Shown: piece after piece, positions 39,792-62,836 of the stretch
Position numbering within the stretch: position 1 is the stretch's first letter
Layout of the letters: the number at the start of each line of letters is the position of its first letter
Assembly (NCBI GenBank): GCA_020072585.1
Contig: JAIQGL010000007.1
Coordinates: 1 to 64,000 of the forward strand
Length of the DNA stretch: 64,000 nucleotides
Direction: 5' to 3'
Source of the DNA: Terriglobia bacterium
GTDB taxonomy: Bacteria > Acidobacteriota > Terriglobia > Terriglobales > Acidobacteriaceae
Program-made: the position numbers and the translations under genes
The notes under the pieces: model-generated
Told to the model about the DNA's origin: nothing
The model's database searches: none
The model's input: the letters and a program-made list of their open reading frames with translations, nothing else

Positions 39792-40214
39792 TTTTTTCCG
39801 CCTTCAGTCCCGCGGGTTAGCGCCACGGAACGGAGATGTTGAAAGCATCCACAGGCTCCAGCAGGTCCACTGCACCGTTGGGTGAGCCAATGCAAGCGCC
39901 GGATCGCGCGAGCAATTGGCGAGGGCGCAGCGGTTTACCGCGAAGCCCTCGAATAAACGGTGCCCGACCTGCGGGGTTGTTGAAGCCCGCAGTCTTACTA
40001 AGTCTTTGATGCCCTTCCACCCGCAAACGACGCAAAATCAGCATCGCTCAACCGGCTGAAAAGCCACGATTTATTGTGCCATTGGAAGCGCTTAAGGCGC
40101 AAGGACACCGAGGGGAGCCCCCCTTGTCCGGCGTTAACGCGTGTGCGGCTGAGTGCGTGGGCTCATACCATTTCGTCGCACAACATCCTTTGCTCTGGTA
40201 CGCTACTTACGCCT
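39792..40214. other. Intergenic region between nadA and the DUF885 gene
   Basis: About 420 bases with no gene I can support. A 75-codon minus-strand frame at 39817-40044 lacks a ribosome-binding site and ordered composition. No clear promoter dyad or hairpin was seen. Confidence 0.5.
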
Positions 40215-54913: not shown

Positions 54914-55657
54914 ATGAGCAGATTCACAAGCACCAATTTAATATCCCTATCTCGGCTGGCTATTGTGGCATTAGTTGCGATCCAGTCATTCGGACTCGGC
55001 ATGGCTGCAGACGACACGTCGAACAGTGGTGTGTGTAGGAACTTGCCTCTGTATGCAAGGCATGGTATCGAAAATAGAAAAAAGATCAGATCTCCAGACC
55101 GCACCAAAACTCTGGTTTTAAGATTTCACGATGATGACAAGAGCATAGGGTACATCTCTCTGGTGTTGCGCGAAGGTCAATCGACACTCGCAGCCCGGCT
55201 GGATGGATTCAGGTTTGAAATCCTGTGGTCTCCGGACTCTTCGCGCTTTGCCGTAAATCAAACAACTGACGGAGGCGGATTCGGCCAGAAGTCTTATGTA
55301 TTCTCCGTGCAGTCTGGCAGGTTAAGAAAAATCGATGTTTCTCTGCCGGTTGAGAGAGCATTCGGTTCGCCGGTCAAGTGCGAACTCCCAATACCGCCAA
55401 ATACTGCAATCATCAAATGGCTGGACTCCGATACGGTGCTGGTGGTGGCGGAGGTGGTTCCGGTAAGTATCTGCAAGTGCAGTGGTTCCTTCCGGAGTTA
55501 TGAAGTATCACTCACTGACTTAGGTATAAAGCGCTCCTATTCCCAGGCCGAAACAAATCGGCTCTTTTTTGATTCCTTGGGATGTGAGCTGCGGAACCCG
55601 CAAAGCACCTGTGCAATTGGCGAGCGGAAACACCTTCCTCGAAGCGACGTTAAGTAA
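54914..55657 (+). CDS. Secreted hypothetical protein, possible partial propeller
   Basis: 247 residues; hydrophobic N-terminus (LSRLAIVALVAIQSFGLGMA). The middle (RFEILWSPDSSRFAVNQTTD) is a WD40/TolB-type strand motif S-P-D-S-S-R-F-A-V. Six Cys are spread along the rest (VPVSICKCSGSFRSY, LGCELRNPQSTC). Function unknown. It ends just before the promoter of the cysteine leader at 55659. Confidence 0.5.
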   Translation: MSRFTSTNLISLSRLAIVALVAIQSFGLGMAADDTSNSGVCRNLPLYARHGIENRKKIRSPDRTKTLVLRFHDDDKSIGYISLVLREGQSTLAARLDGFRFEILWSPDSSRFAVNQTTDGGGFGQKSYVFSVQSGRLRKIDVSLPVERAFGSPVKCELPIPPNTAIIKWLDSDTVLVVAEVVPVSICKCSGSFRSYEVSLTDLGIKRSYSQAETNRLFFDSLGCELRNPQSTCAIGERKHLPRSDVK

Positions 55658-55658
55658 A

Positions 55659-55688
55659 TTGCCCATTAGCAGGCTGATAATGTACACT
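55659..55688 (+). promoter_or_regulatory. Promoter of the cysteine leader and thrC-like operon
   Basis: TTGCCC (55659-55664), 18-base spacer, TACACT (55683-55688). The expected start falls at or beside the leader ATG at 55697, so the leader would be translated with almost no 5' UTR. Confidence 0.5.
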
Positions 55689-55696
55689 TTTACTTG

Positions 55697-55780
55697 ATGT
55701 TACTTTCTGCCTCCAACATGGCCATGTGCTGTCGCGCAATGGCTATGCGTGTGTTCACGCCGAGGCAGAAAGGTTCATAG
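55697..55780 (+). CDS. Cysteine leader peptide of the thrC-like/sulfur-carrier operon
   Basis: 27 codons with tandem Cys codons (TGC TGT, codons 11-12) in the context N-M-A-M-C-C-R. The second leader peptide in this window (62756-62836) has N-M-C-M-C-C-R at the same depth from its start. The codons lie between pairing segments A (55703-55713) and B (55762-55772), and an intrinsic terminator follows. A leader of this type reports the supply of Cys-tRNA(Cys). The reading is my own; no database support is claimed. Confidence 0.75.
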   Translation: MLLSASNMAMCCRAMAMRVFTPRQKGS

Positions 55781-55833
55781 CAAGATTTTTATTCAGCAAT
55801 CATGAACCCGCTGCCTCAGGCAGCGGGTTTTTT
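55703..55833 (+). promoter_or_regulatory. Transcription attenuator controlled by cysteine codons
   Basis: Segment A, CTTTCTGCCTC (55703-55713), pairs with B, GAGGCAGAAAG (55762-55772), 11 pairs. B can instead pair with C, CTGCCTC (55811-55817), by GAGGCAG, 7 pairs. C lies in the terminator 5' arm and loop, so B:C excludes the terminator. A ribosome stalled at the Cys codons (55727-55732) would cover A and free B for C, allowing read-through. A ribosome at the leader stop (55778-55780) would cover B and let the terminator form. Confidence 0.75.
55806..55833 (+). terminator. Intrinsic terminator in front of the thrC-like gene
   Basis: ACCCGCTGCC (55806-55815), loop TCA, GGCAGCGGGT (55819-55828), then TTTTTT from 55828. 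A perfect 10-pair stem with U tract, 65 bases before the thrC-like start codon. It is part of the attenuator. Confidence 0.9.
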
Positions 55834-55897
55834 AGTTTACGCGAGAAATTTTTGCATGGTTAACAGAAAGCCGAAGCTACAGAAGAAGGGGGAGAGA

Positions 55898-57169
55898 ATG
55901 ACCACAAACCTGCGCTATGAGTTGCGATGTCGCGAATGCCAGACCAGATGGGGGAACCAGCCGATTTCATTCTGCCAGAGCTGTTTCGCTCCGCTGGAGG
56001 TGGCTTATGACTGGGACCGCATCCGCAAAGAGATTAACAAAGACGAGATCGCACGGCGGCCCCCGAACTTGTGGCGCTACAGAGAACTGCTACCGCTGCC
56101 GGAGCAATATGACTCCAGCACGCCCGCCGGCTTTACGCCGCTGGTGCATACGGTCAAGCTAGGCGAAAAGCTGCGCAGCAGGTCCGTCTACGTCAAGAAT
56201 GACGCGGTCTGCTTCCCTACGCTCAGCTTCAAAGACCGCGTAGTGGCTGTGGCGCTGACACAAGCCAGGAATTTCGGCTTTGATGTAGTCAGTTGCTCCT
56301 CTACCGGCAATCTGGCCAACGCCGTCGCCGCGCAGGCGGCCCGCCTGGGCTTTAAGGCCTGCATCTTTATTCCGGCCGATCTTGAACCGGCCAAAGTTCT
56401 GGGCACACAGGTCTATGGCGCGCAGATCGTCCGCATTGACGGCAACTATGACCACGTGAACCGTCTCTGCTCGCAGATCGCGGACAAGCATCGCTGGGGC
56501 TTCGTGAACGTGAACCTGCGTCCGTATTATGCCGAGGGCTCGAAGACCGTGGGCTATGAAATCGCCGAGCAGCTTGGCTGGCGGCTGCCGGACAATGTAG
56601 TCGTGCCGATGGCCGGCGGGTCACTGATCACGAAGATATATAAAGCCTTCAGGGAGCTGATTGAACTCGGGCTGGTGGAAGAGAAGCCGGTCAAGTTCTT
56701 TGGCGCGCAAGCCACGGGATGCAGCCCGATCAGCGCGGCAGTAAAGGCCGGGCGCAATGAAATTGAGCCGCAGAAGCCGCAGACCATCGCGCGCTCGCTT
56801 GCCATCGGCAATCCGGCGGATGGGTTCTACGCGGCCAAGACTATCCTGGGTACCGGCGGGTGGGCTGAAGATGCCTCTGATCCTGAGATCGTGGACGGCA
56901 TGGCTCTGCTTGCTGAGACGGAAGGCATCTTCACGGAGACCGCCGGAGGCGTGACTGTAGCCGCCGCAAGAAAACTCTTCGCGCAGGGCCGCATCCTTCG
57001 GGACGAGACGACCGTACTTTGCATCACCGGCAATGGCCTCAAGACCACGGATGCGCTGGCGGGCAGGTTTGAAGCCGTTGAGCCGATCGCGCCCAAACTA
57101 GCCGCATTCGAACAATATCTGGAAGACCAATTCGCCGGCGCACGCGCGGCGGGAAGAGGAGCGGCTTAA
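55898..57169 (+). CDS. Threonine-synthase-like PLP enzyme, probable sulfur-carrier-dependent cysteine synthase
   Basis: 423 residues from ATG at 55898 (AAGGGGGAGAG upstream). A zinc ribbon at the N-terminus (CRECQTRW...SFCQSC) and the fold II PLP motif FPTLSFKDRVVAVALTQARN with catalytic Lys, then SCSSTGNLANAVAAQAARLG, match threonine synthases. However, the next gene is a MoaD/ThiS sulfur carrier, 1 base after, and the operon is headed by a cysteine-codon attenuator. Related enzymes are known to use phosphoserine-like substrates (cysteate synthase). I therefore infer cysteine (or a related thiol amino acid) as the product rather than threonine; not proven. Confidence 0.7.
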   Translation: MTTNLRYELRCRECQTRWGNQPISFCQSCFAPLEVAYDWDRIRKEINKDEIARRPPNLWRYRELLPLPEQYDSSTPAGFTPLVHTVKLGEKLRSRSVYVKNDAVCFPTLSFKDRVVAVALTQARNFGFDVVSCSSTGNLANAVAAQAARLGFKACIFIPADLEPAKVLGTQVYGAQIVRIDGNYDHVNRLCSQIADKHRWGFVNVNLRPYYAEGSKTVGYEIAEQLGWRLPDNVVVPMAGGSLITKIYKAFRELIELGLVEEKPVKFFGAQATGCSPISAAVKAGRNEIEPQKPQTIARSLAIGNPADGFYAAKTILGTGGWAEDASDPEIVDGMALLAETEGIFTETAGGVTVAAARKLFAQGRILRDETTVLCITGNGLKTTDALAGRFEAVEPIAPKLAAFEQYLEDQFAGARAAGRGAA

Positions 57170-57170
57170 A

Positions 57171-57449
57171 ATGACAACGAGCGTGAAAGTTTCCATACCA
57201 AGTGCATTCCGCAGGCATACCGAAGGCGCCGATCACTACGATTGTGCGGCTGCCGACCTGAGCAGCCTTCTTGACTCCCTGGGCGGACGCTTCCCGGAAC
57301 TCAAGGGCCATCTGCGCGACGAACAGGGCAACGTGCGCCGCTTTCTGAATATTTACGTCAACGATGAGGACATTCGCTTTCTGGGCAAGGACTACCAGTT
57401 CAAGGAAGGAGATGAGGTTACGCTGGTACCGTCGATTGCCGGGGGATAA
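57171..57449 (+). CDS. MoaD/ThiS-family sulfur carrier
   Basis: 92 residues, beta-grasp: SVKVSIPSAFRRHTEGADHY, LSSLLDSLGGRFPELKGHLR, FLNIYVNDEDIRFLGKDYQF, KEGDEVTLVPSIAGG. It ends in the diglycine that is adenylated and thiocarboxylated by an E1. The mycobacterial counterpart is CysO. Directly follows the PLP gene; the E1-rhodanese (48621) and JAMM (49994) genes lie 7 kb away. Confidence 0.88.
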   Translation: MTTSVKVSIPSAFRRHTEGADHYDCAAADLSSLLDSLGGRFPELKGHLRDEQGNVRRFLNIYVNDEDIRFLGKDYQFKEGDEVTLVPSIAGG

Positions 57450-62692: not shown

Positions 62693-62731
62693 AAAAAGCA
62701 AAAGGCCCATCGCCTGTTCTGGCGATGGGCC
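62693..62731 (-). terminator. Intrinsic terminator in front of the sulfite reductase gene
   Basis: GGCCCATCGCC (62731-62721), loop AGAACA, GGCGATGGGCC (62714-62704), followed on the transcript by TTTTGCTTTTT (62703-62693). It is 19 bases before the reductase start codon, in the position of an attenuator. Confidence 0.9.
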
Positions 62732-62823
62732 CTGTTTCCTAAAATGAAATGCGGATTAGGTAACAGTTTCTCCAGCCAGAGACACATGGGTTGCTGTGCG
62801 ACAACACATACACATGTTCTGGC
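62704..62823 (-). promoter_or_regulatory. Cysteine attenuator of the sulfite-reductase operon
   Basis: Segment A, GCCAGAACATG (62823-62813), pairs with B, CATG...TCTGGC (62788-62775). B (TCTGGC) can instead pair with GCCAGA at 62723-62718 in the terminator, which repeats the first nine bases of A (GCCAGAACA). A third hairpin, CTGTTACCTAA (62766-62756) with TTAGGAAACAG (62742-62732), holds the leader stop codon and adjoins the terminator. The competing-pair logic is the same as in 55703-55833. Confidence 0.65.
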
Positions 62824-62836
62824 AAATGGCCTGCAT
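62756..62836 (-). CDS. Cysteine leader peptide of the sulfite-reductase operon
   Basis: 26 codons on the minus strand with Cys at codons 5, 9, 11 and 12, within N-M-C-M-C-C-R. The stop TAA is at 62758-62756, followed by the terminator. Start ATG 62836 lies one base from the predicted transcription start, so it would be a leaderless message. The other leader in this window has N-M-A-M-C-C-R. Confidence 0.75.
   Translation of the reverse strand: MQAICQNMCMCCRTATHVSLAGETVT

Follow-up and report, generated by a model that had tools for sequence, protein, structure and literature searches.

What does a bacterium measure when it regulates a gene whose product looks like a threonine synthase, but which is followed by the gene of a small sulfur carrier? 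The question is raised by a locus in a stretch of 64,000 nucleotides from the genome of an Acidobacteriaceae member from soil (the stretch is hereafter called the window, and the genome G000). An earlier note on this DNA had proposed that the two genes are preceded by an attenuator that responds to a shortage of charged Cys-tRNA. Here, the leader, its possible RNA structures, the function of the downstream genes and the corresponding regions of related genomes are considered in turn.

Anatomy of the leader

The features of the locus, all on the plus strand of the window, are the following.

55659..55688, plus strand: candidate promoter, TTGCCC (55659-55664), spacer of 18 nt and TACACT (55683-55688); identified by eye, weak
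55697..55780, plus strand: leader uORF of 27 codons, MLLSASNMAMCCRAMAMRVFTPRQKGS; read as an open reading frame, with orthologues in six other genomes of the genus
55703..55713, plus strand: segment A (CTTTCTGCCTC), anti-antiterminator arm, pairing with 55762-55772 over 11 bp
55718..55747, plus strand: putative control codons Met8, Met10, Cys11, Cys12, Met15 and Met17 (codons 8-17); a stall at any of them is predicted to leave segment B free
55762..55778, plus strand: segment B, antiterminator 5' arm, reaching the uORF stop codon (55778-55780)
55802..55817, plus strand: segment C, antiterminator 3' arm, overlapping the terminator 5' arm; from pairing computation
55804..55835, plus strand: intrinsic terminator, stem of 12 bp (55804-55830) plus T tract; from folding and a terminator scan
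55898..57169, plus strand: ThrC-like PLP enzyme, predicted MetM (homocysteine synthase), with its likely start at 55898 after a GGGGGAG site
57171..57449, plus strand: MoaD/ThiS-like sulfur carrier with a GG C-terminus, predicted MetO from its sequence; NCBIfam models stay below their cut-offs

The 27-codon reading frame with tandem Cys codons on which the earlier note was built is present, and it holds Met codons besides those for Cys. With 29 long window ORFs as the codon background, Met and Cys together account for 6 of the 26 interior codons where 0.79 would be expected (P = 1.1e-4), Met alone for 4 (P = 1.6e-3) and Cys alone for 2 (P = 0.03). The candidate promoter has 8 of 12 consensus matches by eye, and a promoter scan around the leader did not list it and returned no site. 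From its position, transcription is predicted to start at about 55695-55697, that is, at or just before the uORF ATG, so that the uORF would be leaderless and the ribosome would load at the 5' end of the RNA. TATAGT-like boxes are likewise seen by eye 8-13 nt upstream of the ATG in other leaders; in particular, TTGAC and TATAGT boxes can be seen by eye in all eight of the Thr-codon leaders described below, with their ends 8-13 nt 5' of the ATG, a placement which suggests leaderless uORFs there, the window's own promoter being weaker.

The pairing of A with B over 11 bp (55703-55713 with 55762-55772; -17.6 kcal/mol) agrees with the earlier description. The alternative pairing of B with C had been described with 7 pairs, which are found as a first helix (55762-55768 with 55811-55817), but that description was incomplete: a second helix, also of 7 bp (55772-55778 with 55802-55808), joins the last uORF codons (GGTTCAT) to ATGAACC just 5' of C, and both helices together reach -20.2 kcal/mol. 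The terminator formerly placed at 55806-55833 is indeed a strong one (-21.9 kcal/mol), with its stem at 55804-55830. Folding of the whole leader, which had been suggested as a check, gives -65.2 kcal/mol for 55695-55840 (z = -6.6), a value that 0 of 200 shuffles equalled.

Proposed mechanism and position of the ribosome

In the proposed mechanism, when charged Met-tRNA and Cys-tRNA are ample the ribosome would pass codons 8-17, reach the stop codon and cover B, and the terminator would end transcription. Should either Met-tRNA or Cys-tRNA run short, the ribosome would stall at codons 8-17 and hide A or separate it from B, leaving B free to pair with C; the terminator would then come too late and metM-metO would be transcribed. 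If the leader were not translated at all, A would pair with B and the terminator would form.

This scheme was confronted with a folding model in which pairing is allowed solely to RNA 3' of the ribosome, whose leading edge was assumed to lie 13 nt beyond the first base of the A site. The model covered 18 of the 28 codon positions, at four transcript lengths. When the terminator 5' arm has just been made, the first antiterminator helix has a value of 1.0 with the A site at any position through codon 18, 0.71 at codon 19, 0.03 at codon 20 and 0 from codon 21 onwards. The second antiterminator helix stays at 0.97 through codon 21, has 0.75 at codon 22 (range 0.75-0.98) and is absent at codon 24; its persistence to codon 22, past the control codons, is a point against the model. 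Without a ribosome at this same length, A:B prevails (0.88, with the first antiterminator helix at 0.07). Once 4 nt of the terminator 3' arm have been added, the ribosome-free RNA has the antiterminator at 0.58 and A:B at 0.39, which is a second point against the model.

When 8 nt of the terminator 3' arm are present, stalls at Met10 and Cys11 leave the first antiterminator helix at 0.03-0.04, against 0.61 for Cys12 and 0.96-1.0 for Met8, Met15 and Met17; once the terminator is complete, no stall gives the antiterminator more than 0.59 (Met15). Given these values, the attenuation model needs kinetics, with the antiterminator forming first. Such an order, the antiterminator before the terminator, is that of textbook attenuation. 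From the geometry of the stall, all six control codons would fall within the permissive positions and a ribosome at the end of the uORF would mask B. The claim that the stall site and the stop codon are placed so as to free or mask B is therefore sustained by geometry and folding, except that it overlooked Met8, Met10, Met15 and Met17 as control codons.

Conservation of the leader in the genus

A covariance model built from six leaders, with that of G005 (L124) kept outside the training set, matches seven of the nine genomes of the genus that were examined, G005 included, with E values of 6e-26 or better. Because the model recovers seven of nine genomes, one of them from outside its training set, the leader is not a chance feature. 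The peptides begin as follows.

Window: MLLSASNMAMCCRAMAMRV, 2 Cys codons
G004: MSLSVSNMAMCCCAMAMRV, 3 Cys codons
G006: MLLSVSNMAMCCCAMAMRV, 3 Cys codons
G005: MLLSVSNMAMCCCAMAMCV, 4 Cys codons
G002: MFTPVANMAMCCHTMAMRV, 2 Cys codons
G007: MFQPVANMAMCCHTMAMRV, 2 Cys codons
G003: MLLSVSNMAMCCAMHMC, 3 Cys codons

Four Met codons are found in all seven. The N-M-A-M-C-C stretch is conserved at the nucleotide level in six of the leaders and almost so in the seventh. The leader of G003 lacks one codon between the Met/Cys control codons, and its Cys17 lies one codon beyond the last permissive position. As for the two remaining genomes, the contig of G008 ends at the metM gene, so that the leader region is absent, and G001 gives a weak match (E = 0.03). 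G001 has a leader with hairpins and a terminator (L163 1675-1746, minus strand) upstream of proC, which precedes metM, and the encoded peptide (MHTSLTHQAHAAYPLPCTHAAEG) contains a single Cys and lacks interior Met; it is a genuine exception to the Met/Cys leader.

The pairings are retained across the seven sequences, 85.7% of cells being paired for A:B (39-56% for slid registers) and 91.8% for B:C (26-50% for slid registers), figures that carry a favourable bias, since one of these same sequences supplied the structure. Compared with shuffles, B:C has z values of -2.4 to -4.1 in the seven leaders; those of A:B range from -3.0 to +0.3 (the latter in G007) and reach -2 or lower in two of the seven. 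The comparison across acidobacterial genomes that the earlier note had called for thus finds the leader itself, with weak covariation: the changes within the genus are too few to be informative, the seven leaders holding one two-sided change in A:B and none in B:C, which is not above shuffles.

It could be asked whether an ordinary terminator of the upstream gene (54914-55657) happens to be accompanied by a chance ORF. Terminators after genes are common, and shuffling removes few terminator-like sites (4 in 2.5 kb here, 2.8 in shuffles), 55804-55830 being the longest stem among those observed. Such an explanation is hardly credible given that the leader stands at metM in seven of nine genomes while its upstream neighbours vary, as in G005, where a divergent prepilin-peptidase-like gene (by eye) takes this place.

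Predicted function of the operon

The ThrC-like enzyme of the window belongs to the PALP family and clears the cut-off of the threonine synthase model TIGR00260 (273 against 167 bits). A paralogue encoded in the thr operon likewise exceeds this cut-off, so that family models cannot separate MetM from ThrC. The sulfur carrier belongs to the ThiS family, and its PDB relatives include 3dwg_C, a chain which we take to be CysO of M. tuberculosis. A ThrC homologue adjoining a MoaD/ThiS carrier is the gene arrangement of the metM/metO pathway. According to excerpts of PMC12172450, the homocysteine synthase MetM was found in Streptomyces by Hasebe et al. (2024), and metO is the name of the sulfur carrier gene of S. 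albulus. The same excerpts mention a homologue from a cyanobacterium, with 51.6% identity to MetM, which has threonine synthase activity and is not fully MetM-like (PMC12172450), and homology alone thus leaves function unsettled.

The two genes of the window look like metM and metO, which would make homocysteine from O-phosphohomoserine with the help of the sulfur carrier, as part of a methionine route, a prediction that draws on the distribution of metM, MetX and SAM-I in relatives and on PMC12172450; the operon product would be homocysteine, and hence methionine. A close metM orthologue (E < 1e-130) was found in 42 of 61 genomes, the next best genomes having 1e-72 or worse. Of the homoserine acyltransferases whose place metM may take, MetX above 300 bits occurs in 10 of the 61, never together with the metM orthologue, and the next best match has 156 bits; the threshold of 300 bits is our own choice, the curated cut-off of 500 being reached by none of the 61 genomes and none of 14 controls, and no control exceeded 300. 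In G000 the best match to the MetX model has 146 bits and MetA is absent. MetA was considered as an exclusive alternative to metM and rejected, as in all 6 of the 61 genomes that have it, it coexists with metM. PF01053, the family of MetB, MetY and MetZ, is present in 61 of 61 genomes and is useless as a discriminator; the presence of these enzymes everywhere speaks against the explanation favoured here, as does the threonine synthase (equivalog) score of the ThrC-like enzyme. The codon content of the leader also hints that the 'threonine synthase' serves methionine synthesis. A cysteine-synthase reading of the operon is less likely on the evidence of MetX, of the leader and of the SAM-I riboswitches described below.

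Other RNA sensors in front of metM

The SAM-I riboswitch (RF00162) is absent from the window and from all nine genomes of the genus. Among 61 relatives it was found in 23 (22 above the cut-off, in a search with stricter filters), with a single copy in each genome; in 22 of these 23 it lies by coordinates directly before metM, and in the remaining one (G048) on another contig. All 40 further genomes of the family that were sampled, drawn from the matches listed with coordinates at one or a few for each genus, have SAM-I upstream of metM, a gene present in at least 179 of 300. The Met/Cys device occupies the slot where most sampled relatives carry SAM-I.

When 110 metM loci were oriented, a SAM-I core was recognised by pattern in 87. 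The other 23 comprise seven loci (six genomes) with the Met/Cys leader, that of G026, the pair G012 and G019, whose leader stands at the start of the operon, four with SAM-II-like elements, five cut inside a SAM-I-like leader, that of G001 and three that are too short. SAM-II/SAM_alpha-like elements upstream of metM stay below the Rfam threshold of 36 bits in L027 (23.3), L164 (25.7), L166 (24.9), L165 (34.6 and 25.5, in tandem), L108 (22.6) and L076 (22.3); L066, which is cut by a contig end, gave no SAM-II-like match. Apart from these, L076 has a fluoride riboswitch match at 1309-1381, and the window has two nadA riboswitch matches in tandem at 39800-39987 on the minus strand.

In a MetM tree of 106 rows (L016, too short, L087, a short frame, and the duplicates L038 and L042 were left out), the genus, including G001, forms one clade with a support of 100. 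G012 and G019 group together (90) within a clade (83) where every other row has SAM-I, whole or cut, and G026 stands apart; the deeper forks are open. SAM-I has likely, though this is not proved, given way to leader peptides on more than one occasion. That a single gene can change from one sensing system to another is already known, as an excerpt of PMC2965389 indicates. Related genomes have metM fronted by SAM-I, by a sub-threshold SAM-II-like element or by a leader peptide, and with three types of sensor at metM, the replacement of RNA sensors can be studied at one locus.

Sister leaders at other operons

A leader of similar build is found in the window in front of a nitrite/sulfite reductase-family gene and cysG genes.

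62756..62836, minus strand: sister leader uORF, MQAICQNMCMCCRTATHVSLAGETVT; the models for the reductase stay below their cut-offs
62704-62731, minus strand: terminator of this sister leader

By eye, this leader (QNMCMCCR) and that of metMO (SNMAMCCR) resemble paralogues. Across the reductase leaders of six genomes Cys9, Cys11 and Cys12 are invariant, whereas Met10 is replaced by Thr or Lys in three and Met8 by Ala in one. No leader of this type passed the filter in the stretches examined for G001, G002 and G003, and a filter match in the scan for Cys leaders (L133 900-1014) was dropped as chance.

Just past the window, a Thr-codon leader (MQVRKSNFAMAMCLTTTSTGTTTSRRQLGEPAA; L118 8406-8560, contig 64405-64559) precedes thrB-lysC-thrC-hom of G000, the genome in which the thr operon was assigned by gene family. 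Thr leaders are found in the corresponding region of eight of the nine genomes of the genus, the stretch of the ninth (G003) being cut by the contig end; further matches without Thr clusters were dropped as chance. MAM is present in three of these eight leaders, and part of the Met content of the metMO leader may be inherited sequence. Outside the genus, the leaders of G012 and G019 (L161 3517-3670 and L162 3786-3942), before genes read by eye as lysC-hom-metM, contain RTMTMTTMAM and TTTLRTMAMRM, Thr and Met codons being present and Cys codons absent, and the metMO-lysC-thrC-thrB-hom operon of G026 has a leader (ISTIAISTMAMSMRLTT) with Ile, Ser, Thr and Met codons. Met codons without any Cys codon are seen in the metM-operon leaders of three other genera.

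At PF01507 loci, of which 11 of 13 were read, Cys-rich leaders with terminators lie upstream of cysD-like genes in three: L243 (oriented 1110-1310; ..MQMCSLCCAC..), L245 (..NMCPMCMPM..) and L248 (oriented 1168-1390; ..GCCCAVVCCPCPCAQRC.., eight Cys codons). An overlapping frame in L243 and the matches L248 769-877 and L250 107-182 were dropped as chance. Near 22 trpE/leuA loci no Trp or Leu leader passed the filter (two or more Trp codons, or runs of Leu, together with a terminator). In G029, a genome without a metM orthologue, a uORF with Thr and Ile codons (MKTNVQICTSITITATTMVAIHPCFWRT; L149 2393-2479) followed by a terminator was observed.

The codons of the sister leaders match their operons: Cys at the nitrite/sulfite reductase and cysD-like genes, Thr at thr, Thr and Met at lysC-hom-metM. 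For 24 leaders the best B:C and A:B duplexes were picked by script, and exist by construction; when each leader was set against 300 shuffles, 19 of the 24 had a B:C z of -2 or lower and 12 an A:B z in that range, the misses for B:C being the Thr leader of G007, the reductase leaders of G000, G004 and G006, and the leader of G026.

These comparisons also bear on the idea that, in place of codon-speed sensing, the leader encodes an arrest peptide that acts through its sequence or forms an RNA aptamer, i.e., a riboswitch of an unknown kind. The nucleotide conservation of N-M-A-M-C-C and the stable fold of the leader would fit such a device, but the peptides of the sister leaders differ and their codons vary with the operon, and no Rfam family matches the leader at its curated score (the best being L10_leader with 22.5 bits against 44 and Leu_leader with 19.4 against 50). 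We regard it as very improbable.

Methionine, cysteine or both

The anatomy of the leader, its conservation and the similarly built sister leaders support attenuation through ribosome stalling, and to this extent the earlier note was right; Cys-tRNA as the sole signal is the part of its proposal that finds no support, in view of the Met codons, the methionine route and the Cys-free metM leaders of other genera. If Cys alone were sensed, the Met codons would be filler and the operon would serve cysteine synthesis in the manner of CysM/CysO. Tandem Cys codons in all seven leaders, the CysO-like PDB relative of the carrier and the Cys-rich reductase leader are in line with this, which is nevertheless rather improbable: the metMO leaders keep all four Met codons in seven of seven genomes whereas the reductase leaders vary theirs around constant Cys codons, relatives have SAM-I at the same gene, and the PDB matches of the enzyme are threonine synthases and dehydratases, not CysM.

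Conversely, the signal might be Met alone, with the Cys codons a relic, now irrelevant, of a duplicated Cys leader. The paralogue-like appearance of the metMO and reductase leaders favours this possibility, as do the prediction of Met as the end product and its occurrence in every metM-operon leader read except that of G001. It is set against the retention of at least two Cys codons in all seven leaders, with three or four in four genomes, and we consider it unlikely.

A ribosome-mediated transcription attenuator of the metM-metO operon that senses both charged Met-tRNA and charged Cys-tRNA is, judging from sequence, the probable explanation. From an evolutionary perspective, one genus may have replaced control by a SAM riboswitch with an attenuator that measures elongator Met-tRNA and Cys-tRNA jointly, one of several related attenuators, all leaderless, with codons re-tuned for each operon (Cys, Met plus Cys, Thr and, in other genera, Thr plus Met); on this broader scenario our opinion is evenly balanced.

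Comparison with known systems

The classical attenuators are those of amino-acid operons such as trp, his and thr, the last with thrL of E. coli. They likewise consist of a uORF with control codons, alternative hairpins and an intrinsic terminator, and the Thr leader of the genus is thrL-like. The leader described here differs from them in a uORF that is probably leaderless, in the combination of Met with Cys codons, in the phylum and in the SAM-I riboswitch that occupies the same slot in relatives. Polycysteine leaderless uORFs of mycobacteria, ascribed to Canestrari et al. in 2020, are cited elsewhere as a case of translation attenuation. They share with the present leader the Cys codons, the leaderless state (probable here) and the association with sulfur genes, whereas the terminator, the antiterminator and the added Met codons are features of the latter.

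In Rhodobacterales, the uORFC-8-2 motif before cysS has tandem Cys codons, a hairpin and a terminator, and transcription attenuation has been proposed for it (PMC8632094, in excerpt); the gene and the phylum differ here, and the excerpt does not mention Met codons. Leader peptides encoded by Cys-codon uORFs were also described before cys operons of Actinobacteria, where, according to the part of the text consulted, terminator hairpins were not found (PMC1262725); the Cys codons are shared with the leader of the window, which has a terminator. Among the matches listed from a literature that leaves out most subscription journals there was neither a Met-codon attenuator nor an amino-acid leader peptide in Acidobacteriota, which is weak evidence of absence in both cases.

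The closest parallel for the genes themselves is metM/metO of S. albulus, which pairs a ThrC homologue with a sulfur carrier as in the window, the likeness of the two MetM proteins being one of description and not of protein-to-protein comparison. Upstream of metM of S. albulus, excerpts of PMC12172450 imply a SAM riboswitch, whereas in the window this place is taken by a peptide leader.
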